A stretch of DNA of 64,000 bases from an uncultured bacterium (GCA_949284985.1 CASDWY010000029.1:1-64000), one strand, 5' to 3'; numbered from the stretch's first letter, positions 11,096 to 28,231 are shown. The notes: a model not told the origin generated them from the sequence alone. Numbers and translations are program-made.

Positions 11096-13035
11096 GTTTT
11101 GTCTCTACTTACTCTAAGAACTTCGTAAATGTTTATTTTTTTTGCTTTCCCACGAATAGATACTTCGCGTATTTTAATAACATCACAAATACGGCTAACT
11201 TTTTCGTACGTAGCTTCGCTAATTAGAAATCTGGTTTTATAGACTTTGTTGTAGGACTCAATTCTGCTTGCTGTATTTACAGTGTCCCCAATTACGGTAT
11301 ATTCAATTCTTTCCGGGGAACCAATATTTCCGACGAAAGCATCACCTGTATTAATTGCTATTCCTATTTCAATATTGGGTTTACCTTCTATAATCCATTT
11401 TTGTTGAAGTTGTGCAATTTTTTCGTGAATATCGTTTGCGCAAAGGACGGCATTTAGTGCGTGGTTTTTATCTTGTATCGGTTCACCAAAAATAGCTAGT
11501 ACAGCATCTCCTATGAATTTATTCAATACACCTTTATGTTGGCGTATTATTGGTTCAACAGCAGAGAAATATTCATTTAGGATTGATGTGACTTCTTCTG
11601 CGCTCAATTTTTCTGAAATAGACGTAAATCCTCTAATATCAGCAAATAATACTGTGATATTGGCACGTTTTCCTCCCAGCTTAAGGTTGTCTATGTTCTT
11701 GACAACATTTTTCATAATATCTTTTGAAATATACAGTCCCATTGCATTTTGTATTTGTTCTTTCTTTTTACCTTCAATCAAAAATCTAAAAGTAAAACCT
11801 GCGGATATAACCATTAATAATAGAAAGACTGGTGTGATAAGTTGTATGGTTATCCCCTTGGCAAAGAGTATTGCTGCGGTTATAAGGTAGGCTCCTATTA
11901 AAAGTCCAAGTGCAATTAATGATGTAGAAAGGCTGAATGTTGAAATAATCCAAGCTCCTATAAGTACAATTGCAAGGGCTATGCTAAATTTCTGGAAAAA
12001 ATTTATTTCGTATCGAGACTGGTTTTCGAGTAAGTTACTTATTATTGTTGCTTGTATGTCGGCTCCAGCATGAGTTTTATCAATAATAGGTGTGCTTTTG
12101 ATATCTTCAAGGCTTTTTACTTTTGCTGCTGCACCAACAATAACTATTTTATTTTCAAATTCTTTTGGGTTTATAGTTGGTTTTTTTCCTTGTTTAATTT
12201 GTTCATATGACTCAAGGATATCTATCGCAGAGTATGTTTTGTGTGTAGAAAATTCATCAATAGGTTTGTACCATTTTATAAACATTTGAAGCCCATACAT
12301 TGTGTTGTTAACACGAATCTTTAGACTTTTGCAGTTATCTTCCGAGCATAAATATTTGTTGTTTACATATAATTTTTTGATTCCTTTATGTTTTGCAACC
12401 GCAGCAAAAGCGAGCATGGGATAGCTTTTATCTTTAATGTTTATAACAGGAAAGGCAGAACGTATAATGCCGTCTTTATCTATTGGGGTTACAATACATC
12501 CTAATGCGGCTGCATTTTTTATTTGTTGCGGATGGAGTTTGAGAATGCCGTTCATTATGTAGGGTTTTTTATCAACAACAAAATCAATGTCGAGGGCAGA
12601 TTTAGTGTTAATTATTTTTAATTCTTCAGGTGTTATTTGGTTTTGTTGTTCTAGATTGTAGCCTGCATCAAAAGAGCCTATGTAGTTGTCATACTTTTTT
12701 ATTGTATTAAAAAAGTATTTATCTGAATCCGGGAAGTCATTATCCGGTGAATAAATAAGAGCGTCGTGTGCAGTAACAGATGCGTGTCCATATTCATTAA
12801 GATATTCTATTATTTCGGCATATAGTTTTCTTTTCCAAGGCCAACGTATTTTGTCGATTGATTTCTGGTCTATCATTATCATTACGACATCGTCGGAGGC
12901 TTTATCCTTTGTAAGTTGTTTTGTATACAGATTGCTTATTTTAGGTTCAAGAAACCTTTCCATTGTTAAAAAAATGCCAAAGGATAAAACGGCGAAAAAG
13001 ATTATTATTAGAAAGTAAATTTTAAAATTCTTCAT
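11089..13035 (-). CDS. CHASE2-domain adenylate cyclase, membrane-bound
   Basis: 648 residues. An N-terminal anchor helix (6-24) and a CHASE2 extracytoplasmic sensor (about 40-330) are followed by three transmembrane helices (350-422) and a class III cyclase domain (455-630). Metal ligands are D466 (FADIRGFTS) and D510 (KFIGDAVLAIFG). K506 and the Asp in EYTVIGDTVNTASRIE fit adenine recognition, and the Asn and Arg of NTASR are the transition-state pair, so cAMP is the expected product. This layout is common in Cyanobacteria and their relatives. It lies 23 bp after the formyltransferase gene and overlaps recG by 7 bp. Confidence 0.92.
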   Translation of the reverse strand: MKNFKIYFLIIIFFAVLSFGIFLTMERFLEPKISNLYTKQLTKDKASDDVVMIMIDQKSIDKIRWPWKRKLYAEIIEYLNEYGHASVTAHDALIYSPDNDFPDSDKYFFNTIKKYDNYIGSFDAGYNLEQQNQITPEELKIINTKSALDIDFVVDKKPYIMNGILKLHPQQIKNAAALGCIVTPIDKDGIIRSAFPVINIKDKSYPMLAFAAVAKHKGIKKLYVNNKYLCSEDNCKSLKIRVNNTMYGLQMFIKWYKPIDEFSTHKTYSAIDILESYEQIKQGKKPTINPKEFENKIVIVGAAAKVKSLEDIKSTPIIDKTHAGADIQATIISNLLENQSRYEINFFQKFSIALAIVLIGAWIISTFSLSTSLIALGLLIGAYLITAAILFAKGITIQLITPVFLLLMVISAGFTFRFLIEGKKKEQIQNAMGLYISKDIMKNVVKNIDNLKLGGKRANITVLFADIRGFTSISEKLSAEEVTSILNEYFSAVEPIIRQHKGVLNKFIGDAVLAIFGEPIQDKNHALNAVLCANDIHEKIAQLQQKWIIEGKPNIEIGIAINTGDAFVGNIGSPERIEYTVIGDTVNTASRIESYNKVYKTRFLISEATYEKVSRICDVIKIREVSIRGKAKKINIYEVLRVSRDKTC

Positions 13036-16570: not shown

Positions 16571-16647
16571 GGGATTGTAGCTCAGTTGGTTAGAGTGCCT
16601 GCCTGTCACGCAGGAGGTCGCGAGTTCGAGCCTCGTCAGTCCCGCCA
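16571..16647 (+). tRNA. tRNA-Asp (GTC)
   Basis: Full cloverleaf: acceptor GGGATTG pairs with CAGTCCC, D-arm with TAGCTCAGTTGGTTAGAG, anticodon loop CTGTCAC (GTC), variable loop, T-arm GCGAG-TTCGAGC-CTCGT, discriminator G and an encoded CCA. Its 3' end is the integration site of the island, and the recombinase gene on the other strand reads 57 bases into it. Confidence 0.97.
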
Positions 16648-18221
16648 TTTTTAAAATTAGCACCTTCGGGTGCTTTTTTAGTGCAATTTTGTTGAGTTTC
16701 AGGTGGTTCGATAGTTGAATTTTGATGTTTGCTTTCTTTGGCTAACCTAAATAAGGTATCAAATGCTGGATGTAGCTCTACATCAAAGTTTCCATCATAA
16801 TATGTGGCGTTCGATAATACTGTTTGCGTAATAAATCGTTTATCTTCAACTGTGCCGTTTAAGAACATTTGATGTGCATTTCTTGCATACTTTAATAACT
16901 TCTCACATGTTTCATAGAATTTAACATCAGCCTCATTTACTCTGTGTAGGGCTTCAATTAATTCTGTCTTTTCAGCATGATATGACTTGTTGATTTCTCT
17001 CCAGAAATCTTCATCTATAGTGCCATCACATTTATCTTCATAGGCTTGTCTTATACGTTTATTTACTTGCTCTATTTTCCTAGTAATACTAGCCTCTGTC
17101 TTTTCTTGATAATCATGCTTATCGTCATGAATTTCTTTAATAAAGCTTTTTATGGAATCAAATAACTCTTTCGATATATTAAAGCTTTTTAAGAACTTAA
17201 TTATAATTTCATCTATAGAAGTTTGGGATATATAAGATAATTTCTTACAACCCTTTTTGTGTGTATCATTACAATGATAATATATGTACTCTTTGCCACT
17301 TTTCTTTTTCTTTAGTTCTGGAGTAAGCAAGCCCCCACACATACCACATTTAAATAATCCTTGATAAGGGAATTGAACATCGTGAGTTCTTGCTCTTACA
17401 ACACCACCTAATCGTTCTTGTATAGCATTAAATGTATCTATATCAATAATACCTTCGTGTTGAGCATTTGTGCATACAAACCCCTTAAATTCAAATTGCC
17501 CAATATAGAAAATGTTTTTAAACATTCTTTCAACAGTAGATTTTGCGAGCTTGTTACCATTCTTATTTGTAAGTCCTTCGGGGAATAGCATATCGTTAAT
17601 TGTCTTAGCTGAATAATTACCAGAGGCATATAATGAAAATGCTTTTTGTACGACCTTTCTCTTATCCTCATCAACGGCTATTATATGTCTGCCTCTCTTG
17701 TCCATAGTATTGTAATAACCGACAGGAGCTATTGATGGATAAACACCTTCTTCAATCTTCGCCAAAATTCCTTTTTCAGCTTCTTCCTTAAGGTTATCAA
17801 TGTATTGTTTTGACAGTACCACTCTTAGACCATATATCATTTTATCTTGGCTCTTTGATTTTTCTGAAATAATAGAACCTTCTTTAACAAAGTGTAATTC
17901 TAACCCCTCGATAGAATCCAAAGTAACAACATCTTTAAAATTACGAGTTATACGGTCTGTTTTTTCTACAAGTAGTTTATTTACATCGTTATGGGCTTTT
18001 AAGTATTTAAGCATAAGGTTAAATTGCTTTCGACCAGAAGTTTTAGCACTCATTGCCTCTCTGAAAAATTCTACAATTTCATATCCTTCATCTTCCGCAT
18101 ATTTACGCAACAGCTTTTCTTGTGCAGAAAGAGAATACCCCTTCTCTTGTTCTCTTGACGATACTCGAATATATGCTACAGCCTTATTGGTATCAATAAT
18201 ACTAGCTTTTTTCTTTACCAT
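16590..18221 (-). CDS. large serine recombinase (integrase) ending inside tRNA-Asp
   Basis: 543 residues from the ATG at 18221 (AAGGGG nine bases upstream). The resolvase domain starts AYIRVSSREQEKGYS with the catalytic Ser at residue 21; then a recombinase domain, a Cys4 zinc ribbon (FKCGMCGGLL...YHCNDTHKKGC) and a coiled coil. Large serine integrases insert elements by attP x attB exchange. The last 19 residues (NGGTDEARTRDLL...) are antisense tRNA sequence and so come from attB, not from the element. At 27085 the same frame continues differently for 41 codons, which would make a 565-residue protein in the circle. First gene of the island. Confidence 0.92.
   Translation of the reverse strand: MVKKKASIIDTNKAVAYIRVSSREQEKGYSLSAQEKLLRKYAEDEGYEIVEFFREAMSAKTSGRKQFNLMLKYLKAHNDVNKLLVEKTDRITRNFKDVVTLDSIEGLELHFVKEGSIISEKSKSQDKMIYGLRVVLSKQYIDNLKEEAEKGILAKIEEGVYPSIAPVGYYNTMDKRGRHIIAVDEDKRKVVQKAFSLYASGNYSAKTINDMLFPEGLTNKNGNKLAKSTVERMFKNIFYIGQFEFKGFVCTNAQHEGIIDIDTFNAIQERLGGVVRARTHDVQFPYQGLFKCGMCGGLLTPELKKKKSGKEYIYYHCNDTHKKGCKKLSYISQTSIDEIIIKFLKSFNISKELFDSIKSFIKEIHDDKHDYQEKTEASITRKIEQVNKRIRQAYEDKCDGTIDEDFWREINKSYHAEKTELIEALHRVNEADVKFYETCEKLLKYARNAHQMFLNGTVEDKRFITQTVLSNATYYDGNFDVELHPAFDTLFRLAKESKHQNSTIEPPETQQNCTKKAPEGANFKNGGTDEARTRDLLRDRQAL
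16660..16680 (+). terminator. terminator behind tRNA-Asp
   Basis: GCACC-TTCG-GGTGC followed by six T, 13 bases after the CCA end. It belongs to the element, not to the original chromosome, and on the other strand encodes part of the recombinase C-terminal region. Confidence 0.8.
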
Positions 18222-18290
18222 AATAAACACCCCTTATCTGCATATTATATCACAAATAAGGGGCGTATTAAGGTAAGTAATATTGTAGTG

Positions 18291-18449
18291 CTACATAGCT
18301 TTGTTATCCATTTCAACAAGCTTATAAAGATATTGTGCTAACTGTCTTTTGTTATCCTCATCAGTAGTTTCAAGAGAAGGTGTGTGAACTATTACTTTAA
18401 TTTTACCTACGATGAATGTTACATCGGAATTGTTCATTAGGTTTGTCAT
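18291..18449 (-). CDS. small island protein, 52 aa
   Basis: ATG at 18449 with AGGAG eight bases upstream, an excellent ribosome-binding site. The product starts MTNLMNNSDVTFIVGKIKVI; the remainder is acidic and helical (TDEDNKRQLAQYLYKLVE). No hydrophobic segment. It lies 70 bp upstream of the recombinase gene on the same strand, where recombination directionality factors and small repressors often sit, but nothing in the sequence proves such a role. Confidence 0.6.
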   Translation of the reverse strand: MTNLMNNSDVTFIVGKIKVIVHTPSLETTDEDNKRQLAQYLYKLVEMDNKAM

Positions 18450-18501
18450 TGCGTTATCTCCTATCGTTGTGTACTCTAGGAGTTTGACCGACCACGATAA
18501 C

Positions 18502-18600
18502 CAGAATAACTATTATTGTTATTCTGAAAATTTAGGCATACTAAAACAGCTACTATTATTGAATAGTAGCCATATTGTAATTTAGAAACTTGTTATTCTG
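18502..18600. repeat. hairpins and a repeated GTTATTCTG between two island genes
   Basis: CAGAATAAC (18502-18510) pairs with GTTATTCTG (18518-18526), and GTTATTCTG recurs at 18592-18600. Between them is a 9-bp hairpin, GCTACTATT/AATAGTAGC (18549-18570), followed on the minus strand by TGTTTTAG. This one may terminate the 340-residue gene; the others could be protein-binding sites. Confidence 0.5.
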
Positions 18601-18611
18601 TAAATAACAGT

Positions 18612-19634
18612 TTAGTTATCCCAAATATCTGTTATCATATAACATTCTAAGGTCTTATCATATCTCATAAGGGTTATAGACTCATCCAGTGTCATTTCCC
18701 GGTATTGCTCATTTAATCGGTTCACCATAGTAGTAAGAGTTCCCATTTTGTCATATAGTTTTGTTGGTTTCTCTCCAATTAATTCAGAAGGATATATCAT
18801 ATAATCTCGAGCCTTTGCGTACATCTTAATGAAATTGTACAATTCTTGTACGGTTGGTGAGAAGTGTTTTCTTACCTTCTTTGATTTATTTTTTTGAGTC
18901 TTAGGTTCTTTTTTTGTATCTTCTTTTGTATCATTTGCATTATATCCTTCTACAAAATCATTGGCTGATATAATACCTTTGAAAATAAGTTTGTTATCCT
19001 TGTTAAAATGAATGTCTATACCTACAACTGTAAGTTTGTTAAGGGATTCATTGTAACAGATAGCTTTGATATATTTTATATCGTTAACAATGAAATTACT
19101 AAGGTTGTAAGTATTTGCTGTTAACAAGCTATATAATGCCTCATTATTGGCAGCACAAGTTAGTGTATTATATTCATCACTATAAACACAATCACAACCA
19201 TAACTAAAACAATATTCATCGAGTGCTTGCCTACATTTGTCTTTATTTTTAATGAAGAATGATATTTGTGTGCTTGTATCAGAAAGCTTTTTATACTCTA
19301 TATCAAATAATGGGTTATTATCATAATAATGCTTATGATAATCTACTAAAGGTTCACCCATTATAAGAGTTTCACCGTAATAAGGGTGTTCTATATAATG
19401 TTCACCAGCTACATAGTAATAATCTGTAAAAGTTGTCATTGCACAATCTATTATAGTGTTCAGATTATCATATTGTTCTTGGTTATTCACGACAAACTCA
19501 ATTTTATTAGTAATAAAATCAATATCTTTTGCAGACATAGCCGAGCGTATCAATGCTAAAGCTCCATCCAAAACATCAGTACTGTGCGACTGTATTTCAC
19601 CTTTCATAAATTCCAATTTTGATATCATAAACAT
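18612..19634 (-). CDS. unrecognised island protein beside the iterons, 340 aa (replication or copy-control candidate)
   Basis: No family recognised. The N-terminal 230 residues are mixed and acidic, rich in Tyr/Asn/Asp. A Lys-rich linker (about 233-252, KEDTKKEPKTQKNKSKKVRK) joins a C-terminal domain (255-340) with helical segments and a final strand pair (LMRYDKTLECYMITD) that could be a winged helix. The start is uncertain (19634, 19628 or 19607) because no Shine-Dalgarno is seen; TATAAT sits directly before the first ATG. The iterons begin about 70 bp upstream, so a protein binding them could repress this gene. It may be the initiator or a partner of the 414-residue protein. Confidence 0.6.
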   Translation of the reverse strand: MFMISKLEFMKGEIQSHSTDVLDGALALIRSAMSAKDIDFITNKIEFVVNNQEQYDNLNTIIDCAMTTFTDYYYVAGEHYIEHPYYGETLIMGEPLVDYHKHYYDNNPLFDIEYKKLSDTSTQISFFIKNKDKCRQALDEYCFSYGCDCVYSDEYNTLTCAANNEALYSLLTANTYNLSNFIVNDIKYIKAICYNESLNKLTVVGIDIHFNKDNKLIFKGIISANDFVEGYNANDTKEDTKKEPKTQKNKSKKVRKHFSPTVQELYNFIKMYAKARDYMIYPSELIGEKPTKLYDKMGTLTTMVNRLNEQYREMTLDESITLMRYDKTLECYMITDIWDN

Positions 19635-19704
19635 AATTATACATCAAATAACCTAGTAAACTTTAATGTTCCGTTCTTTTAGAGTTTAATACATGAGTTA
19701 AAAA

Positions 19705-19846
19705 GTAACCATTTTGCAATTTTTGCCGATAAACAAGTTACTATCCTACAATTTTGTTGTTATCATACTGCAATTTATCGGTTACCATTGTGCAATAAAA
19801 TTGTTACTATGTTGCAATAAAAATGTTACCATTGTGCAATTTTCAA
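19705..19846 (+). repeat. iteron array (six copies, five at exact 22-bp steps)
   Basis: Copies of GTTACCATTGTGCAAT start at 19705, 19737, 19759, 19781, 19803 and 19825. The last five are spaced exactly 22 bp, two turns of B-DNA; the first is 32 bp away. Variable positions are mainly the C/T of GTTAY and the two bases before TGCAAT. Regular repeats of this length between two element genes are the hallmark of iteron-controlled plasmid origins, where a Rep protein binds each copy on one face of the helix. No known family's iteron matches from memory. Confidence 0.85.
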
Positions 19847-19900
19847 AAGCTCAAAAGCCTTATATTTATTACATTCAAGGCTAATATAAAAGCTCCTATC

Positions 19901-19931
19901 TATTGTTTATTTATTGTTTAGTTATTGTTTA
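19901..19931 (+). repeat. AT-rich triple repeat, possible DNA unwinding element
   Basis: TATTGTTTA occurs at 19901, 19912 and 19923, an 11-bp period, about 55 bp beyond the last iteron. AT-rich phased repeats beside iterons are where origins usually melt. No good DnaA box (TTATCCACA) is seen nearby, so DnaA dependence is open. Confidence 0.6.
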
Positions 19932-19951
19932 TCTATGTTCATTTATTTCTA

Positions 19952-20101
19952 GACACACAAAAAACAGGGTTAGACTAACCCCACCTTCCAAAGGTAGGGA
20001 AACGCTCTTTTTTATTTCTTTTTTATCTCAATATAAAAGCATTTATTATATTTTAAGATGACACACAAAAAAACAGGGTTGGGCTTCCCAACCTTCCAAA
20101 G
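19952..20101 (+). repeat. two copies of a 42-bp hairpin-containing repeat
   Basis: GACACACAAAAAACAGGGTT...CCTTCCAAAG occurs at 19952-19993 and again at 20060-20101, 108 bp apart. In each copy the middle forms a hairpin (GGGTTAG/CTAACCC; GGTTGGG/CCCAACC) whose stem sequence differs but stays paired. The first copy is followed by a T-rich run. Candidate roles are tandem terminators, a small regulatory RNA, or a single-strand origin. The gap 19847-20237 holds no other gene. Confidence 0.6.
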
Positions 20102-20140
20102 AATTTAAGACCTTTCGGTCATTCCAATAAACGAACAACA

Positions 20141-20168
20141 AAAGGTAATTATTAAGTTAATTACCTTT
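20141..20168. repeat. perfect inverted repeat upstream of the 414-residue gene
   Basis: AAAGGTAATTA and TAATTACCTTT, 11-bp arms around a 6-base loop, 70 bp before the start codon. Size and place fit a dimeric repressor operator or a leader hairpin; the following T-rich stretch is too interrupted for a clear terminator. Confidence 0.55.
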
Positions 20169-20237
20169 TATTTTTATTCCGAGAAATTAAATTATTACAT
20201 TTTAATTTGTTCGAGATGAAAATGAGGAATGACAAAA

Positions 20238-21482
20238 ATGGTCAAAAAAACTTTTAACCCTGCCGACTATCGGCAAAAACAAGAAAAAAATTTAAATCAG
20301 GGACGCAAACCCGGATTTATTTTCGATGTTGTCCTTGATGACGAATCCTTAACAAACGTAGTCAAAAATGCAAACACAGCGTGTGTTTTAGATTATCTTG
20401 AAGGAAAACAATATTTAGGTGCAATGTATCCATCTAAACCTTGTACCTACATTGTGTGTAATACTTTATTATTCAAATTGCTCAATTTGCCGACAATGTG
20501 GGCATTTGAGCTATTATCTGGCATGTATGTATATTACTTTGCTCCAACCAATGAGGCAAGTTTTAACAGGCTTCAAAGCCTTGAAAACGAGGATATTATA
20601 AGCATTTATAGCTGTTACGGTATTGTATTTAACAAATACCAAATGCTTAAACTATGCCCAAACTGGGGAGATTATAAACTGTCCAATTTGCCTCAGCTAA
20701 CACCTCAAACCCTTGATTTTATAGAGGAAACAGCCCAAAAAGTAATAGATAATAAAGATAATTTCTTCCAAATAAACAAGCTAAAACCCTTTTATAATAT
20801 GCCTTTAGCTTTATCGGCAAAACTTGGAAAAGTCGTATTGGCAATAAATACACATATTTTATTAGAACACCTTTTGCAACAAATGACGCACAGCAGCGCC
20901 GTTATCGACAATACATACAGCGATGTTTATCTTGTTAATTATGCCCAATTTCAAAAGGGGCTTGCTTTTCAAGGCAAACATAAAAGAAAAGATGTTGTTA
21001 TTGATGAAACCTTAAAAGAGCTTCAAAATAACGCTATTATTGATGATTTCGAAGTGGTTGACGACAACCTTGTATTTGAATCCGCTTTAATAACAAAACA
21101 TATTAAACAACGCATAAGGCGAAATATGGGCTTTTATGCCCAACTACCGCCAACTAAGCAAGCCCCCATAATTGCAACATTCATTAATTATCTGGCATGG
21201 ATTAGTGACTGCCCTAGCAATTTTGCACAATTAACTATTGCATTGGATACATTAATTGGTCAATTAGGCGTTGAACGCCTACTAAAAGAACACAGATTAG
21301 GTGAGATTGCCAAATTGTTGAACCTTTTGAGGTGTTATGGCGTGCGATACGGCTTATTATGCATGCCACCTAACTCAACGGAAATAACAAGCAAGAATGT
21401 AAAGTACCTATTACAGAATAGGGGTAAATTACACGAATTTTTTGTATTAAAAACCGCCGAGAACGGCAAGGAGAAAAAATAA
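20238..21482 (+). CDS. unrecognised island protein downstream of the iterons, 414 aa (replication-initiator candidate)
   Basis: Not matched to a family. I start at the ATG at 20238, ten bases after GAGG; the ATG at 20229 is only one base from it. The basic N-terminus (VKKTFNPADYRQKQEK) is followed by two alpha/beta regions. The C-terminal half has helix-rich segments with basic patches (ITKHIKQRIRRNMGF, LGEIAKLLNLLRCYGVRYG) that could be winged-helix DNA-binding domains as in two-domain Rep proteins. Gene order (iterons, AT-rich repeat, then this gene) is that of iteron plasmids. Followed without a gap by a 64-residue gene. Confidence 0.7.
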   Translation: MVKKTFNPADYRQKQEKNLNQGRKPGFIFDVVLDDESLTNVVKNANTACVLDYLEGKQYLGAMYPSKPCTYIVCNTLLFKLLNLPTMWAFELLSGMYVYYFAPTNEASFNRLQSLENEDIISIYSCYGIVFNKYQMLKLCPNWGDYKLSNLPQLTPQTLDFIEETAQKVIDNKDNFFQINKLKPFYNMPLALSAKLGKVVLAINTHILLEHLLQQMTHSSAVIDNTYSDVYLVNYAQFQKGLAFQGKHKRKDVVIDETLKELQNNAIIDDFEVVDDNLVFESALITKHIKQRIRRNMGFYAQLPPTKQAPIIATFINYLAWISDCPSNFAQLTIALDTLIGQLGVERLLKEHRLGEIAKLLNLLRCYGVRYGLLCMPPNSTEITSKNVKYLLQNRGKLHEFFVLKTAENGKEKK

Positions 21483-21677
21483 ATGTTTAGCATTGAAACT
21501 TATGATTTTATGGCAGATGAAAAATTCCAAGAATTCTTGAAGAAGAAGATTGGAGATGAATTTATCCCCAAAGATAAATTTCTAAGGAAACTAAACGCAA
21601 TAAAAAAAGAGTGGATTAAAATATTAAACTCACCAATTTTAAGACACGCATATAAGGTTGATTTTGATGTCGAATAA
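21483..21677 (+). CDS. small island protein, 64 aa
   Basis: The ATG directly follows the previous stop, with AAGGAG inside the end of that gene, so the two are in one operon and possibly coupled. Lys/Glu-rich and helical (EFLKKKIGDEF, LNAIKKEWIKIL). No hydrophobic segment. Unknown; a partner or copy-number factor of the 414-residue protein is only suggested by position. Confidence 0.6.
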   Translation: MFSIETYDFMADEKFQEFLKKKIGDEFIPKDKFLRKLNAIKKEWIKILNSPILRHAYKVDFDVE

Positions 21678-21790
21678 CAAAAGATTCTAATTAAGGGGTA
21701 ATAAATATTACCTAAATATATTTTAATACCCCTTAAATGGCGTTATACAGCCTCAAATTAGATTTTAAAATAATAGGAGAACTTAAATAC

Positions 21791-21994
21791 ATGGAATATA
21801 CAAAAGAACAATTAGCACAAATACTAAAGAAGAAAGCAAAGAAAGAAAAACAACAAAAAGACGATATAGTTAAGACGGCGGAAGTGCCAAAGCCTCTAAA
21901 CCCAATGGAAAAAGCAAAAGCCTTGTTGCAAAAGACTGACAGCAAATATCAGTCTTATATTGCGAAAAAACTCACGCCGAGCTTGAATAAATAG
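21791..21994 (+). CDS. small Lys-rich island protein, 67 aa
   Basis: I choose the ATG at 21791, preceded by AGGAG, instead of the start at 21737, which lacks one. The product begins MEYTKEQLAQILKKKAKKEK, a strongly basic helix, and ends in a flexible tail. Probably the third gene of the operon with the initiator candidate. Function unknown; the basic helix suggests DNA contact. The following 236 bp to the resolvase show no gene. Confidence 0.55.
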   Translation: MEYTKEQLAQILKKKAKKEKQQKDDIVKTAEVPKPLNPMEKAKALLQKTDSKYQSYIAKKLTPSLNK

Positions 21995-22231
21995 CCCTGT
22001 TGGCGTATAGACAGCTTTAAAACTCCTATAATATAAGGCTCTTACACATCTAAAAGGCTTGTAACACAGGCATGGTGGGCGTGTAAGGGCTTTACATATA
22101 TATAATGATAAAACAAATCCTACATCCACAAGGCAAGCTATATAAGGATTTTAGGGATAGAAGCACTATAAATACCTTAATTTCCTTTTTTGCTTAAGGG
22201 CTGACAAAGATTATAGAATTTCCACAAACTT

Positions 22232-22885
22232 TTACCCTTTGTTGTAATAAATTTTGAGGTAGTTGTAAAACGTTCCACGTGATAATTTTTTCTTGTTCTT
22301 TGCTATCAAAGCTCCATTAATACTGTTTAATAACTCGGTCTTTGTTTCGTTGCCTGTAGCTTTCTCCACGACCTTTAGAAACTCTTTTGGTAGGTCGTTA
22401 AAGGTCAATTCGTGTCTGCCGAACTTAACCCCTTTATCTTTTGCAGCCTCTCTACCTGCGTTGGTTTTCTCTAATAATTGCCTGCGTTCTTCATCAGCCA
22501 ACCATGTCATCGTAGCAAGTACAATGTCCACAACTAGGGCGGTTGCAGGATTATCATCCTTTTTTCGTGTATCTAATAAAGGACAGGTAGCTACTACAAA
22601 GGCAATATTTTTTTCTTTCAACTTGTGGAAAAACTCCAATGTGCCTGCGTACGTCCTGCCTGCACGTGCAACGTCAATTAATATCAAACAATCGCCTGAT
22701 TGCATGCCGTCTGCAAGCTGTTTCAACTTTGGTCTATCAAAGTTCTTGCCTGTTCTACTCTCGGTAATTATGTTATCAGGTGATATTTTTATGCCTTGTG
22801 CAGTGCAAAAGTCCATGAGTTGTTTATACTGGCGGTCAAACTCCTGTTTTTTTGTGGATTTTCTAAGGTATGCGTAGTATGTCAT
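22232..22885 (-). CDS. small serine resolvase/invertase
   Basis: 217 residues. The N-terminal catalytic domain starts YYAYLRKSTKKQEFDRQ (nucleophile Ser in RKST), with the resolvase landmarks SGDCLILIDVARAGRT and ADEERRQLLEKTNAGREAAK; a C-terminal helix-turn-helix-like region (SRGTFYNYLKIYY) follows. On plasmids such enzymes resolve dimers at a res site. Here it fits a replicating circular stage of the element. AGGGG lies before the ATG at 22885. Its leader, ATAGGGGTAATTAT, also precedes the Fic gene. Downstream of the 91-residue gene, probably one transcript. Confidence 0.88.
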   Translation of the reverse strand: MTYYAYLRKSTKKQEFDRQYKQLMDFCTAQGIKISPDNIITESRTGKNFDRPKLKQLADGMQSGDCLILIDVARAGRTYAGTLEFFHKLKEKNIAFVVATCPLLDTRKKDDNPATALVVDIVLATMTWLADEERRQLLEKTNAGREAAKDKGVKFGRHELTFNDLPKEFLKVVEKATGNETKTELLNSINGALIAKNKKKLSRGTFYNYLKIYYNKG

Positions 22886-22915
22886 ATAATTACCCCTATG
22901 ATTGAAAGGTAGCTT

Positions 22916-23191
22916 TTAGGCTACCTTAAACCTTCTACTTAATCTCTCTGTCATATACTCCGCTACATCGCCGAAATCTGCTCTAAAGGCTTTTAAATCA
23001 AATACTTTAGAAACTACTTGAGTCCAATGAATAACTGCTGTTCCTAAGTCTAAGTGTTCAATCTTTTGAGCTTCCATGTAATCCTTTAGTACTTGTTCTT
23101 GGTTTTTTATAGCTTCTTTTAGTTCTGCTTCTTGGTTGTAAAGAGCTTGAAGGGTTTTAACTGTTGCTAGTAATTCGATTTTAGATGTCAT
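22916..23191 (-). CDS. phage/plasmid-type hypothetical protein, 91 aa
   Basis: An N-terminal coiled coil (about 10-45, LQALYNQEAELKEAIKNQEQ), then a strand pair and the C-terminal pattern VFDLKAFRADF...TERLSRRFKVA. This layout (coiled coil, short strand region, 'FD..AF.....SRRF.VA') recurs in small phage and element proteins of gut bacteria; the function is not established. A consensus-like promoter stands directly upstream. 30 bp before the resolvase gene. Confidence 0.6.
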   Translation of the reverse strand: MTSKIELLATVKTLQALYNQEAELKEAIKNQEQVLKDYMEAQKIEHLDLGTAVIHWTQVVSKVFDLKAFRADFGDVAEYMTERLSRRFKVA

Positions 23192-23227
23192 AATAATTAT
23201 CTCCTATTTGTTGCTTTCCATACTTTT

Positions 23228-23282
23228 ATAATAACGTACTATATGTTATTTGTCAATAAAATCATCTCACATTTATTGACAA
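23228..23282. promoter_or_regulatory. promoter of the 91-residue gene inside an inverted repeat
   Basis: On the minus strand TTGACA (23256-23251) and TATTAT (23233-23228) are 17 bases apart. The -35 is part of an inverted repeat, TTGTCAATAAA/TTTATTGACAA (23250-23282), whose other arm offers TTGACA on the plus strand. A regulator binding this palindrome would cover the -35. On the plus strand TTGCAG...TATAAT (about 23293-23323) could also start transcription into the end of the nuclease gene. Confidence 0.6.
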
Positions 23283-23443
23283 TATTTACAAATTGCAGCA
23301 CTTTTTATATTTTTAACTTATAATCCAATAATAACAAGTGTTTATACCAATTTAGACTTAAACCTTGATTAAAGAATTTATAGCCTAAATTGTTGTACAA
23401 TCAAGTTATGAATTTATTGACATATTATAAACTTAAATAAGAT

Positions 23444-24541
23444 TTATCCAATTAAACTTATTTTGTTATCAAATGACAAATTATTGATTGTTGGTTGAAA
23501 TGCAATACTAATTGACTGAACATCAGAATCATTTGTCATTAACTTTCTTTGAAAATCAAGAATATTTTCGTTTATCGAATTAAAATGCGATGTACAATTT
23601 TTACATATTCGTAAATCAGCACTATTTTCACACAAATTATAGACCCTATATATATTATAACAACCTCTTGGACAAGTTAGTGCAAAATTAATTTCTCTAT
23701 CACTATATACAATTCTTTGTTCAAAATTAAATTTTGTGGTTTTAACATCTAAGTATATTACATTATCAGCTAAATCTTGATAAAAGAAATCATATGGATT
23801 TCCACTTTCTGAATTTTCATTGACCCAATTATAAGTTTTAATTTTGTTCTCAAATTTTAACTTATCAAAATATTCAGCAACAAGAACTTCGCCTTTTTTA
23901 CCAATTTCTGTAAATATAGTTTGAGCTCTTTGAATATCATATTTGCGAAATTTTCTTTCATTTATTAGCTTACCTGGAATCTGGGTTTCAATTTCTAATT
24001 CTTGGATAACATTCTTAGTAGATATATCAAGAGTGCTTTCTATATATGAAAGTATTTGACCGAAAATAGTATCATCAGCTGTTACTCTTCCCTTTGAATG
24101 CTCATCAAGGTTTAATCCAATATTTATAATATCTTTATAAGCTTGAGATTGATTGTCAAATAGCCAAAAAACAGATTGACCACTTTGAAGACCGAACCAA
24201 AATAAAAACCAAATAATATTTTTATCTGCATTACGAGCAATTTCTCTAATTGTAGAAACCAAAGAAACAGTGCCTCTTCCGCCTACTTTAATTTTAGGAC
24301 TTCTAAAAGTTCCATCTGGATTTGCGATTCTATCAAAATTCAAGCTTAAAATTTCAGTATTTGATTCATAAATAAACATTGCAGAATCTTCTATTATTGG
24401 TTCATTTGGTAAGAATGTTAAAACGTCATCAAATAAACCAATATGAGTTTGGTGACTTGTAATCCTACGACCTAAATCTGCATCCGTCAATGCTTTATAT
24501 CCAATTATTTTTTCATCATGCAATTCAAAAAACTTTTCCAT
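23444..24541 (-). CDS. putative restriction endonuclease, PD-(D/E)XK/DUF3883-like
   Basis: 365 residues. Near residues 210-270 is GKKGEVLVAEYFDKL...PYDFFY...IYLDVKTT: D251 and D265-V-K267 would be the PD-(D/E)XK catalytic set, and the preceding GxxGE helix and 'VKTT' end resemble DUF3883-type nuclease domains. The N-terminal 200 residues are unfamiliar and could recognise DNA. Last gene of the minus-strand set after two methyltransferases, one base after the second, so the nuclease is translated last. It should cut the site both methylases protect. Recognition sequence unknown. Confidence 0.72.
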   Translation of the reverse strand: MEKFFELHDEKIIGYKALTDADLGRRITSHQTHIGLFDDVLTFLPNEPIIEDSAMFIYESNTEILSLNFDRIANPDGTFRSPKIKVGGRGTVSLVSTIREIARNADKNIIWFLFWFGLQSGQSVFWLFDNQSQAYKDIINIGLNLDEHSKGRVTADDTIFGQILSYIESTLDISTKNVIQELEIETQIPGKLINERKFRKYDIQRAQTIFTEIGKKGEVLVAEYFDKLKFENKIKTYNWVNENSESGNPYDFFYQDLADNVIYLDVKTTKFNFEQRIVYSDREINFALTCPRGCYNIYRVYNLCENSADLRICKNCTSHFNSINENILDFQRKLMTNDSDVQSISIAFQPTINNLSFDNKISLIG

Positions 24542-24542
24542 A

Positions 24543-25646
24543 TTATTCCATCCTTAAAACATTCTTTTCTATTAATAGATAATATAATATTGCATAAACA
24601 GTATTTACACTAACAGCATTTCCTGCTTGCTTGTACAACTGATGATTACTAATGTCCGCTTTTTGACAATTTCTACAATACGATGCTGGGAAACCTTGAA
24701 ACCTAAGGGCTTCAAGAGGTGTTATCTTACGAATTCTCTTTTCAATAAGTTCTTCTTTGGTGAAAACAATTTCTTTGTATTTTATCGGGTCTTCTGCATT
24801 AATAAAGTCATCACTAAAATAGTTATCTTGGCAAGCCCTATGCATTTTAACCATAGTTGCTGTTAATGGCTTTGCAATTATAGGATTTATTTCTGATTTG
24901 CTTGAAAAGTTCTTGGTTCCATTTGATAGAATTGTAGGTTTTAAAACCTTTGAAATATAATACTTTTCGTCTACTTTTTTTTCTAAAACATCTAATACAT
25001 TATTTTGTATTTGCAATGAAGTTCTGTTTTTTATTTTATTAAATGAATCTTTCACAAGCTCTTGTGAGAACTCAAATCCTTTTTGTAAAGGGGTTTTAGA
25101 TGCAAAAATAAAAACTCTATTTCTAGTTTGTGCTAAACCAAAATTATTTGTATTAAAAATATCATGATATATATATGGATAGCCAGCCTTCTTAATTAAA
25201 GCAAGTATAGTTTTAAATGTTTCACCATTATTATGTGAAACTAAATTTCTTACATTCTCTAATAATATAATTTGAGGTTGCTTTTCCTTTAAAATATCTA
25301 TAATTTTAAAAAATACATTTCCTCTTAAATCATCAAAACCTTTCTGTAAGCCCATCATGCTAAATGCTTGACAAGGGAATCCTCCAGTTAGTAAAGAAAA
25401 ATCGTCTAAATGTGTTATATTCTTTTTGTCTTCTGTAAATTTAACGATATCCCCAATTTCAAGTTCATTATTAGTATTAAAATTTGCTTTATAACTTTGA
25501 GTAGCATAATTATCTATCTCTGAAAAACCAACACAATGTATATTTACACCAAAATCCTGCCCTAGAAGTTCTAGTGCTAAACGGAATCCTCCAATTCCTG
25601 CAAATAATTCTAAATGTTTTAATTCTCTATTTTTTTTATTATGCAC
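24543..25646 (-). CDS. DNA (cytosine-5) methyltransferase
   Basis: 367 residues with motif I FAGIGGFRLAL (from 15), motif IV GGFPCQAFSMMG (catalytic Cys 92), motif VI ENVRNL, motif VIII AQTRNRVFIF, a target-recognition region (about 200-300) and motif X QAGNAVSVN. A GTG at 25646 is the only start before motif I. It overlaps the upstream methylase gene by 28 bp. The Cys-rich end of the recognition region (SYCRNCQKAD) is unusual. Two m5C enzymes in one system usually mean an asymmetric site with one enzyme per strand. Confidence 0.95.
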   Translation of the reverse strand: MHNKKNRELKHLELFAGIGGFRLALELLGQDFGVNIHCVGFSEIDNYATQSYKANFNTNNELEIGDIVKFTEDKKNITHLDDFSLLTGGFPCQAFSMMGLQKGFDDLRGNVFFKIIDILKEKQPQIILLENVRNLVSHNNGETFKTILALIKKAGYPYIYHDIFNTNNFGLAQTRNRVFIFASKTPLQKGFEFSQELVKDSFNKIKNRTSLQIQNNVLDVLEKKVDEKYYISKVLKPTILSNGTKNFSSKSEINPIIAKPLTATMVKMHRACQDNYFSDDFINAEDPIKYKEIVFTKEELIEKRIRKITPLEALRFQGFPASYCRNCQKADISNHQLYKQAGNAVSVNTVYAILYYLLIEKNVLRME

Positions 25647-26764
25647 TTTCCTATTACCTCTGCTAATTTAACTGGCACTGCATTACCTATTTGCATATAC
25701 CAACTATTTTGCGGACCTTTAAAAACATAGTCATCTGGAAATGTTTGTACTCTGGCTGCTTCTCTTGGTGATAAACCTCTTGCTTGAGTAGGGTGTATAT
25801 ACATATTACAATCAAATTTCATATGAGATGTAATTGTTTTACATACTTCATTTTCTGATAATTTATAATATTTATCTTTAAATATATCATTTCTACTCTT
25901 ATATGGCATTATATCCTTGATTGATTCATGTAAAGAATTGCATCCCTGTGGTAATAAACTAAAGATTTTAATATCTCGTTCATTATTATACCTACTTTTA
26001 TGGTTATAGATTTTAGAAATATTCCTGTTATTGTTGATAAAATTATAAAATGTAGTGCGTTTATAATTATAATCTCTTTCAAAATAGCCACATTTTTCAT
26101 CTTCATATTCAGTATTATTTTTCAATTTATTTGGTTGTAATTTAGGTAGGTCTAATATTGCAGTACCCAATGTTACAATTTTAGATTTCTTACAACTTTC
26201 TATTTCGTCAAAAATTTGGCTTGATTTAATTCCTATACGATTACCAATAACAATTAATCGTTCTCTATTTTGAGGTACCCCAAAATCTTTAGCATTAAGA
26301 ATTTTGTATTCAATATCATATTTTAAACCTAGCTTATTATGAAAATCATCTAAGATTTCCTCCATTTTTTTAGCCATGCCCTTTACATTTTCCATAATAA
26401 AAAATTTAGGTTTTGTTACGCTTAAAAATTCCAAATAACTTTTATATAAATGATTTCTAGGGTCATCAATTAATCTTTGTCGATTTGCCATAGAAAATCC
26501 TTGACAAGGTGGACCACCACATACCAAAGAAATATTGTCAAAATGATGTTTATACATATCAATGTTTTGTAATAGATTATTTATATCACCGACAAACATC
26601 TGCTCTTTTGAGAGTTTTCTATTATATAGATATGTTTCAGCACAAGTAGCATTAATTTCGTTTGCAAAAACAACTTGAAACCCAGCTTGCTCTAGCCCAA
26701 GACTTAAGCCTCCTGCCCCAGCAAATAAATCTACAAACTTATATGCTTTGTCATCTTTTGTCAT
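25619..26764 (-). CDS. DNA (cytosine-5) methyltransferase
   Basis: 381 residues from the ATG at 26764 (AGGTGG just upstream). Motif I FAGAGGLSLGLEQAGF, motif IV GGPPCQGFSMANRQR (catalytic Cys 87), motif VI MENVKG, motif VIII PQNRERLIVIG and motif X QIGNAVPVKL are all present, so it should be active. First gene of the restriction-modification operon, as expected for protection before cleavage. The promoter TTGATA...TATATT (about 26783-26810, minus strand) lies directly upstream. No controller (C) protein gene is seen. Confidence 0.95.
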   Translation of the reverse strand: MTKDDKAYKFVDLFAGAGGLSLGLEQAGFQVVFANEINATCAETYLYNRKLSKEQMFVGDINNLLQNIDMYKHHFDNISLVCGGPPCQGFSMANRQRLIDDPRNHLYKSYLEFLSVTKPKFFIMENVKGMAKKMEEILDDFHNKLGLKYDIEYKILNAKDFGVPQNRERLIVIGNRIGIKSSQIFDEIESCKKSKIVTLGTAILDLPKLQPNKLKNNTEYEDEKCGYFERDYNYKRTTFYNFINNNRNISKIYNHKSRYNNERDIKIFSLLPQGCNSLHESIKDIMPYKSRNDIFKDKYYKLSENEVCKTITSHMKFDCNMYIHPTQARGLSPREAARVQTFPDDYVFKGPQNSWYMQIGNAVPVKLAEVIGKCIIKKIEN

Positions 26765-26959
26765 ATTCCACCTGCTACTCAAAATATAACATAAATATAA
26801 TTGTTATCAAAGTTTGTAAAGATGATTAAAATACACAAAGTTACCTAAATTATTAATTTAAATTGTTTATTTAAAATACTACTTCTGTTATTATTAAGTA
26901 ATTTAGATTGTTAAATTTTTATCAAGACTGAAGGCAAGAAATCTTAGACAAGCACTATT

Positions 26960-27085
26960 TTACGCAATATATCTAGAAACCCATTGATTCAACATATAAA
27001 CTAGTTTTGCACTATCTTTATTCATTAACTGCAATTTTAATGTTGTAATAAATGGTTCGATATAAAACGCATTATTTCCGCCATT
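26960..27085 (-). other. proposed attR 1 with detached recombinase 3' end (41 codons)
   Basis: On the minus strand, starting at the shared AAT-GGC-GG of the tRNA end, the frame of the recombinase continues for 41 codons to TAA at 26962-26960. It encodes ...NAFYIEPFITTLKLQ... and ends LNQWVSRYIA. In a circle formed by joining 16649 to 27085 this would replace the tRNA-derived tail. At about 70% AT an open run of this length has roughly a 4% chance, so it is supportive, not decisive. The flanks 26783-26959 hold only the methylase promoter. Confidence 0.55.
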
Positions 27086-27089
27086 TAAA

Positions 27090-27116
27090 AAGAAGTCAAA
27101 AGGCTTCTTTTTTTTT
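27090..27116 (+). terminator. terminator at attR 1
   Basis: AAGAAGTC pairs with GGCTTCTT (one G-T pair) around AAAA, followed by a run of T. It stands at the same distance from CCGCCATTT as the terminators at 16660 and 28232 do from their copies, as if each were once a tRNA terminator. Confidence 0.7.
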
Positions 27117-27120
27117 GTAC

Positions 27121-27140
27121 TCGTCTCTAACTCGCGACCT
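27121..27140 (-). repeat. inverted fragment of a tRNA 3' half
   Basis: On the minus strand AGGTCGCGAGTTAGAGACGA matches the tRNA-Asp variable and T-arm segment (AGGTCGCGAGTTCGAGCCTC) at 16 of 20 positions. The orientation is opposite to the intact tRNA. No acceptor end follows, so it is a scrap. Confidence 0.4.
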
Positions 27141-27190
27141 ACGGCCGCTCCCTCTATTTGCTTATGTGCTTATCTGATATTTTATAATTT

Positions 27191-27250
27191 TTACACTAAG
27201 AATGAGACATTTAGCAAGTAGGATGTGGTAACTTTGGCAGTCCCGTCATG
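27191..27250 (-). other. att-like site 2 with a 19-codon in-frame tail
   Basis: CAGTCCCGTCATGTTAA (27238-27254) agrees with the tRNA end and following bases (CAGTCCCGCCATTTTTAA) at most positions of its first 13. On the minus strand the recombinase-equivalent frame is open for 19 codons to TAA at 27193-27191. Probably the scar of another insertion; the 165 bp between sites 1 and 2 contain no gene. Confidence 0.4.
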
Positions 27251-27294
27251 TTAATAAAAATTATATTATGAAGTTTTTTTATTGCTTTTATATC

Positions 27295-27470
27295 TAATCT
27301 AGAATCGTAAGAGAGCGAAAATTCACCTTACCTCTCACAAAACAATTCGCAGGATTGTTTTGTTCGGCAGAGTGTCATCTTACTCACTTTTTCAAGTGAG
27401 ACTCACCTAGCTCCACACTCGGTTATTGACCTCTACAAGTGAAGCACGGCTCAAACTTGTATAATGAGCA
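27295..27470. other. intergenic region with three hairpins, downstream of Fic
   Basis: Three perfect stems follow each other: ACAAAACAAT/ATTGTTTTGT (27337-27363), CTCACTT/AAGTGAG (27383-27400) and TACAAGT/ACTTGTA (27434-27461). The base composition is less AT-rich than its surroundings. No frame of note. It could be an RNA gene on either strand, a replication or transfer site of the older element, or the leader of something lost. Confidence 0.4.
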
Positions 27471-28079
27471 TTATTTTAATTCTTCTGCTCTGTACACAGC
27501 ATAACCCTCATAATGGTAACTTGCATCAATGCCTTTCATATAGACTTCTCTGCTACTGATTTCTGTGGTTAGTGCTTCTTTTAAAAGGGCTTTTATTTCC
27601 ACGCTTTTAATTGGACTTCTTTCCATTGCCAATAGATAATCTTCCTTGTCTATTTTGCTCCAATCAACAACTTGCCCTAACTCTTTTTTAAAAATCAAAT
27701 CAAGCCAAATTCTTGCACTTCTACCATTACCTTCTCTAAAAGGATGAGCAACATTCATTTCTACGTATTTTTCAACAATCTCATCAAAATTAGATTGCGG
27801 CATATTGTCAATGTGCTCTAACGCAGATTTAAGATACATAACAGGTGCAAATCTAAAATTACCTTTTGCAATATTTACAGTTCTTATTTCTCCTGCAAAA
27901 TCATAGATTTCATCAAACAAATATTTGTGAATAAAAGCGAGAGATTCAAATGTTCCAACTTTCAAATCGTAAATAACCTTGTTCTCAAAAAGCTCTATTG
28001 CTTTAAGCTTACTTATTTTTTCTTCTACTCTAAAAAGCTCTGTTGAATCAGTTATGCCTAATTTGTTTTCTAAAGTCAT
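27471..28079 (-). CDS. Fic-domain protein (putative AMP transferase)
   Basis: 202 residues with the Fic motif HPFREGNGRSARIW at about 112-125 (catalytic His; GNGR binds the nucleotide phosphates), preceded by a flap region (NIAKGNFRFAP) that positions the target. Fic enzymes usually transfer AMP to a protein hydroxyl. The inhibitory (S/T)xxxE(G/N) motif is not evident in this protein, and no small antitoxin gene adjoins it, so control is unclear. AGGGG precedes the ATG. It starts nine bases after the end of the proposed recombinase tail at site 3, on the same strand, as cargo of an older element. Confidence 0.9.
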   Translation of the reverse strand: MTLENKLGITDSTELFRVEEKISKLKAIELFENKVIYDLKVGTFESLAFIHKYLFDEIYDFAGEIRTVNIAKGNFRFAPVMYLKSALEHIDNMPQSNFDEIVEKYVEMNVAHPFREGNGRSARIWLDLIFKKELGQVVDWSKIDKEDYLLAMERSPIKSVEIKALLKEALTTEISSREVYMKGIDASYHYEGYAVYRAEELK

Positions 28080-28087
28080 AATTACCC

Positions 28088-28225
28088 CTATACGACTATT
28101 CTATCATAAAAATTATTAATTAGTTTGTTTATCTTTAAACAAACTATAGATACATAATTTGTTTGTAAATTTATATAATATCTCTTCAACAAAAGTTCGA
28201 ACCTAGAAGCGTCAGTTCCGCCATT
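28088..28225 (-). other. att-like site 3 with a 45-codon in-frame tail, outermost island end
   Basis: CGTCAGTTCCGCCATTT (28210-28226) matches the tRNA-Asp 3' end (16634-16650) at 16 of 17 positions and shares TTCCGCCATTTAAA with site 1. On the minus strand the recombinase-equivalent frame stays open for 45 codons (NGGTDASRFELLLKRYY...) to TAG at 28090-28088, just before the Fic start. I take it as the right end of the first element to enter this tRNA. The rest of 28080-28372 holds only the terminator and the next gene's leader. Confidence 0.6.
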
Positions 28226-28231
28226 TAAATC

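Follow-up and report, generated by a model that had tools for sequence, protein, structure and literature searches.

In the current work, a 64,000-nucleotide stretch of DNA from an uncultured bacterium (GCA_949284985.1 CASDWY010000029.1:1-64000; "the window" hereafter denotes this whole 64-kb stretch) was analysed with respect to an integrated mobile element flanked by a host tRNA-Asp gene and encoding a large serine recombinase. The source organism belongs to the Gastranaerophilales, its relatives being Candidatus Gastranaerophilales, and the element is a mobile element of gut bacteria. The reading which we consider probable is that the attachment site of the element (attP) is located inside the coding end of its own recombinase gene, that upon integration a C-terminus maintained by selection gives way to one encoded by the host, and that the tail specific to the circular form serves integration. 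At the level of the sequences compared, the position of attP, the compatibility of the reading frames, the exchange of the tail, the conservation of the tail as a protein and the recurrence of this arrangement in three recombinase lineages are established.

The recombinase is specified by a minus-strand open reading frame (ORF; 18230..16593) of 546 residues counted from a GTG codon. This ORF crosses the 3' end of the tRNA-Asp(gtc) gene and stops inside it, the protein ending in NGGTDEARTRDLLRDRQAL* (19 codons, taking the core codon AAT at 16649 as the first). Three domains were recognized, all above the Pfam cut-offs: Resolvase (residues 17-163, retained in the 546-residue integrated form), Recombinase (residues 188-274) and Zn_ribbon_recom (residues 289-347). 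Relatives of the catalytic domain in the PDB include TP901-1 integrase. The protein contains serine recombinase domains only, and the tyrosine recombinase domain Phage_integr_3 was not found in it. In an AlphaFold model of a natural fused relative, the zinc-ribbon strands are followed by two helices (250-298 and 302-348) which form a coiled-coil insertion.

Relatives of the recombinase were retrieved from public genomes (18 loci, L069-L086) and, in addition, by whole-genome searches, their identities ranging from 42 to 96%; all genomes are single assemblies and mostly metagenome-derived. Every intact relative down to 42% identity enters a tRNA-Asp gene in one and the same frame, its integrated end reading NGGxDEARTRDL(L/M)RDR(Q/H)(A/T)L or a host variant close to this. 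The linker connecting the C-terminal domain to NGG can be aligned without gaps in relatives as distant as 40%. The recombinase of locus L077 exhibits 95% identity over the matched part, yet ends in NGGDDGYRTRDLLRDRQAL because the host tRNA of L077 differs. The tRNA-encoded part thus varies with the host and not with the element, which places the crossover at the tRNA 3' end and makes the last ~16 codons host sequence. A search for homologues whose native C-terminus falls short of the tRNA overlap returned no intact example. Two apparent exceptions were rejected: in L143 the gene is interrupted, its body ending at 10768 and a 70% match to the 3' end being located beside the tRNA at 12234-12353, following a 1.5-kb insert, while in L142 the gene is decayed, with four in-frame stops, a frameshift and unrelated sequence past codon 511. 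Phage and plasmid records contained only relatives of less than 60% identity (20-29% for those listed), which are uninformative with respect to the tail. Other members of the class have their ends within or next to genes for tRNA-Gly, -Asn, -Val, -Ser, -Arg or -Gln; in the tRNA-Gly lineage, where the recombinase reads into tRNA-Gly, the far junction (attR) was not found within 40 kb of the one element inspected.

At the opposite border of the element, the frame equivalent to that of the recombinase extends on the minus strand from 27085 for 41 open codons (NGGNNAFYIEPFITTLKLQLMNKDSAKLVYMLNQWVSRYIA), followed by a TAA codon at 26962-26960. This tail has no start codon of its own; it opens directly at the recombination core, and this holds in differing host contexts. 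Joining 16649 to 27085 in frame generates 568 codons from GTG, or 565 from ATG. A first-pass annotation of the window, made from its sequence, had claimed that the recombinase reads into the tRNA gene and ends 19 codons on, that the equivalent frame at 27085 on the same strand is open for 41 codons, and that the join restores a protein of about 565 residues; each of these claims was borne out. The chance of so long an open run in this AT-rich region, which the annotation had put at about 4%, was computed as 5-7%. A probability of this size is weak evidence when taken alone, and homologues were therefore needed.

In the comparison across elements which the same annotation had suggested, both the length and the protein sequence of the tail proved to be conserved, at the far attachment site and in the frame of the recombinase. 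In homologous elements, the frame following AATGGCGG at this site specifies a related tail, again of exactly 41 codons, intact tails of the A-type elements being nearly always of this length, and tails related to the 41-residue query are present in 26 of 383 family genomes (all tail counts given here share ancestry and are phylogenetically non-independent). Codons 15-41 were used to determine the proportions of synonymous and nonsynonymous differences (pS and pN, respectively; as pairwise values these share branches). In the A2 clade, pS was 0.47 versus a pN of 0.07, and the changes were distributed over the three codon positions as 17/11/45 (45 of 73 thus falling at the third position), while in the A3 clade pS was 0.77 versus a pN of 0.21. 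The two other forward frames, serving as controls, did not display such a strong contrast in these clades. Nucleotide identity amounts to ~0.7-0.99 inside the tail and mostly to 0.2-0.4 just past the stop codon. Judging from these codon patterns, purifying selection acts on the protein sequence of the tail outside the attP arm. A chance open frame is ruled out by the homologues, considering the occurrence of the tail in 26 family genomes, the third-position bias of the changes and the loss of similarity after the stop.

The attachment sites themselves share a TCGAA motif, which starts 20 nt after AATGG in 25 of the 27 A-type attP arms and 15 nt after it in all 15 tRNA-Asp sites. According to a structural study of serine integrases, the zinc-domain (ZD) motif is positioned 5 bp closer to the centre in the bacterial site (attB) than in attP (PMC3783163). 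TCGAA is a plausible candidate for this ZD motif; the spacings of 20 and 15 nt match the 5-bp shift, and the tRNA therefore takes the part of attB, that of attP being taken by the tail side. The earlier proposal that attP is located in the 3' coding end of the recombinase, and that the integrated form possesses another tail, is thus supported by the tail homologues, by the frame and by the 5-bp ZD shift. In three loci (L118, L119 and L127, from G385, G110 and G425), the tail is preceded by TAATTCGG in place of AATGGCGG, which may correspond to another host core or to a junction deletion.

The same organization was encountered in further recombinase lineages. A sister lineage, which also uses tRNA-Asp and is 42-44% identical, possesses its own tails, mostly of 36-39 residues and typically reading NGG.DASRFELL..., in 36 of 288 family genomes (loose threshold); beyond the attachment arm, these tails exhibit a pS of 0.44 versus a pN of 0.19. 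One tail of this sister lineage (28225..28091) is situated within the window. In a lineage associated with tRNA-Ala (34-35% identical), the integrated end is WWRIGDSNS*, the tail at the partner site is WW(R/S)LTYDLTLxIxxxAA*, and related matches were obtained in 35 of 383 genomes (with expectation values up to 1). Examples of this lineage in L158 (6016-6294) and L156 (1677-1730) carry a 17-residue tail ending in -AA, and L158 contains a degraded recombinase copy fused to its own tail in tandem. In a further tandem array (L078 / L137, 1-1398), an older recombinase of the sister lineage is in frame with the A3-type tail of the next element, thereby forming a natural chimaeric recombinase in one open frame of 466 residues from the contig edge.

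Under the reading favoured here, the gene would in the circle encode a protein of ~565-568 residues, of which the last ~38, those past the core, form a conserved segment. Recombination with attB in the tRNA-Asp 3' end would cut this tail off and leave it at attR without a start codon, and the integrated open frame would instead terminate with ~16 residues specified by the antisense strand of the host tRNA gene, leaving the catalytic, recombinase and zinc-ribbon domains unaffected. Translation of the tail as part of the recombinase requires either the circle or an adjoining element in tandem; selection would hence act on the circle-made enzyme, and the tail would most simply serve integration, whether through activity, through oligomer assembly or through a short lifetime conferred by its hydrophobic -Ala end. 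The integrated, host-tailed enzyme would be catalytically complete and may act in excision, probably together with the small protein encoded just upstream. The swap of the C-terminus would thus mark the enzyme as "free" or "integrated", and suggests that it changes form between these two states. It is possible, although we give this broader proposal rather less than even credence, that recombination itself rewrites the enzyme in bacterial serine integrases of a widespread group, the selected tail of the circle form favouring integration and the integrated form, with its antisense tRNA tail from the host, being poised for excision. If true, this would represent a self-encoded direction switch, for which no regulator is needed to sense the chromosomal state.

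A number of observations weigh against the favoured reading. The AlphaFold model of the natural fusion, based on an alignment of only 21 rows, displays a normal-looking body, a disordered linker and a two-helix tail at a predicted local distance difference test (pLDDT) score of only ~50, and a structural role is therefore not readable from it. No assembled circle junction was found in the assemblies of the 383 genomes when up to 3 mismatches were allowed, and viral contigs did not match the recombinase protein or two attP patterns. Certain tails deviate from the pattern, that of G473 reading past the usual stop and those of G432, G439 and G319 being decayed or divergent (with stops or another end). 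Moreover, the first ~14 codons of the tail overlap the attP arm, and DNA and protein constraint are therefore inseparable in this part.

The main rival explanation is that integration inactivates the recombinase in an SSV-like suicide, which would lock the element in place until another intact recombinase, such as one restored in tandem, excises it. In line with this, the tail is selected and its loss should therefore matter, and many attachment sites contain tandem arrays and orphan tails, the neighbour tail restoring a full open frame in one such array. Nevertheless, suicide is less likely because integration removes no catalytic part: the catalytic, recombinase and zinc-ribbon domains are intact, in contrast to SSV integrases, whose split severs the catalytic part from the rest. 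The integrated frame is, in addition, unbroken across the many copies examined, though selection in the circular phase could maintain it. Overall, we hold this explanation to be unlikely, if a serious contender.

To be taken just as seriously, though likewise doubtful, is a stability switch, in which the circle-specific end would function as a degron, the free form being short-lived and the integrated form stable, as in the repressors of integration-dependent immunity. A hint in this direction is that the last two residues are -IA, -VA or -AA in each of the 16 distinct intact A-type tails; furthermore, -A is the final residue in 13 of 29 tails of the sister lineage, the first two tails seen in the tRNA-Ala lineage end in -AA, the tag of the host transfer-messenger RNA (tmRNA) ends in -ALAA, and the integrated ends differ (-QAL, -HAL, -QTL). 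However, many sister-lineage tails end in -VV, -VI, -TK, -LE or -IS, and ~27 further conserved residues would not be needed for a degron alone.

It is very improbable that the tail is retained as DNA only, i.e. as the P' arm of attP with the open frame as a by-product and the enzyme ending wherever the host tRNA stops the frame. While TCGAA and the initial ~14 codons, located within the attP arm, are nearly invariant, codons 15-41 are situated outside the 25-bp half-site and yet combine a pS far above pN with a fixed stop and a collapse of similarity behind it, and the sister-lineage tails likewise have a low pN/pS beyond the attachment arm. DNA-only constraint beyond codon 14 was thus rejected by the codon-position and frame controls, and this explanation is largely refuted. 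Finally, an independent small gene at attR, or part of an unrelated neighbour, is hardly credible, as the tail, despite being 180 bp from a methyltransferase gene and away from the recombinase when integrated, lacks a start codon, opens at the core in a variety of host surroundings and is continuous in frame with the recombinase end wherever the two adjoin in tandem.

The nearest precedents are the archaeal suicidal integrases and phage Mx8. In the "suicidal" integrases of the SSV type (SSV1, pTN3 and pT26-2), which are reported to be exclusively archaeal tyrosine recombinases, attP is located in the integrase coding sequence and the gene is split by integration (PMC8371274). The first-pass annotation had compared the present element to this type, and the comparison stands in that attP is positioned within the element's own integrase gene, which is split upon integration. 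It does not extend to the enzyme: the SSV split separates the catalytic part, whereas here a bacterial serine recombinase retains an intact catalytic domain after integration and exchanges its C-terminal tail only. In Myxococcus phage Mx8 (and Mx9), attP is situated in int, and integration provides a new 3' end, which is described as changing the specificity of the integrase without abolishing its function (PMC6070905). The likeness to Mx8 consists in the new integrase 3' end derived from host attB sequence; unlike Mx8, the present element family combines a conserved circle-only tail with an integrated tail encoded by the host tRNA. The recombinase family also differs, Mx8 Int being a tyrosine recombinase. 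In the integration-dependent immunity of mycobacteriophages, attP lies in the repressor coding sequence and integration removes a C-terminal ssrA-like end (PMC9934374); here, the split gene is that of the recombinase and not of a repressor, and a degron is a candidate only. The domain order and the 5-bp offset of the ZD motif between attP and attB are as in the large serine recombinases (A118, LI, phiC31 and Bxb1 integrases). In the papers found on serine integrases, by contrast, attP is a site apart from the gene, the same enzyme is present in both states, and direction is set by a recombination directionality factor (RDF). Literature searches, which extended to only a minority of subscription papers, retrieved no serine recombinase whose own tail is swapped, so the absence of a precedent is unproven.

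The features of the element and of its surroundings are compiled in Table 1. In G002, a genome of the same genus, a Fic gene is located within ~300 bp downstream of the same tRNA-Asp gene, while in the window this gene lies beyond 27085, from which it follows that the element is absent from G002. The stems of the terminator-like hairpin vary in sequence among elements, their pairing being kept (as judged by eye). The ORF directly upstream of the recombinase is, by position only, the best candidate for an RDF. Two adjacent C5-cytosine methyltransferases and a NOV_C protein (23444-26782) probably constitute restriction-modification cargo, with a small serine resolvase also nearby; this methyltransferase/NOV_C cargo had no match among the other elements compared. 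The region between two attachment cores, from 27085 to 28225, is the remnant of an older element and contains a Fic gene (27471-28079) and, at its end, its own detached tail, with close relatives in L205, L208 and L210.

Table 1. Coordinates of the integrated element, its attachment sites and associated features within the window
Feature	Position	Strand	Remarks
Integrated element, ~10.4 kb	16650..27084		Absent from this tRNA in G002, a genome of the same genus
Large serine recombinase, integrated form, 546 residues	16593..18230	minus	Last codons (16649..16593) antisense to host tRNA-Asp
Host tRNA-Asp (gtc), attB/attL	16571..16647	plus	TCGAA motif 15 nt from the AATGG core
Core CCGCCATTT at attL, tRNA 3' end	16642..16650		Host-variable tRNA sequence starts just past the core in homologues
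Element-borne terminator for the tRNA gene (AGCACC-TTCG-GGTGCT and T run)	16659..16684	plus	Antisense to recombinase linker codons
Recombinase C-terminal tail of the circle form, detached, 41 codons	26963..27085	minus	Stop codon TAA at 26962-26960
attR / P' arm of attP	27045..27086		Core CCGCCATTT at 27078-27086; TCGAA motif 20 nt from the core
52-residue ORF (candidate RDF)	18294..18449	minus	Directly upstream of the recombinase; conserved in A-type elements (40-94% identity)
340-residue protein without Pfam match	18612..19634	minus	Conservation extends to the closest A-type elements
Second detached recombinase tail, B'-type, 45 codons	28091..28225	minus	attR of the older element remnant; core 28218-28226

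Three further sequence features were observed in the window. An inverted repeat of 16 pairs surrounds a TATAAT-like element just before the recombinase start (18227-18266) and may represent an operator or attenuator. Two direct repeats of 42 nt, 74% identical and with hairpin-like GGGTTAGACTAACCC, are present upstream of the gene for a 417-residue protein, and this region (19952-20101) is a possible replication or terminator region. Beside the attR core, a short fragment resembling antisense tRNA-Asp (AACTCGCGACCT; 27128-27150) is perhaps the scar of an earlier integration.

The arrangement explains the odd "tRNA-antisense" ends of annotated recombinases as well as the orphan tails beside tRNA genes, and calls for caution, in that integrases cloned from integrated copies may be devoid of their real C-terminus. 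Disruption by an integrase of its own gene, which has been called exclusively archaeal and is known for tyrosine recombinases, is here encountered in bacterial serine recombinases of several lineages, which between them use at least two tRNA targets, with protein-level selection acting on the detached tail. If the tail controls activity, the joining of DNA would by itself set a state-dependent form of the integrase, which would bear on the long-standing question of directionality and on the use of these enzymes as genome-engineering tools.

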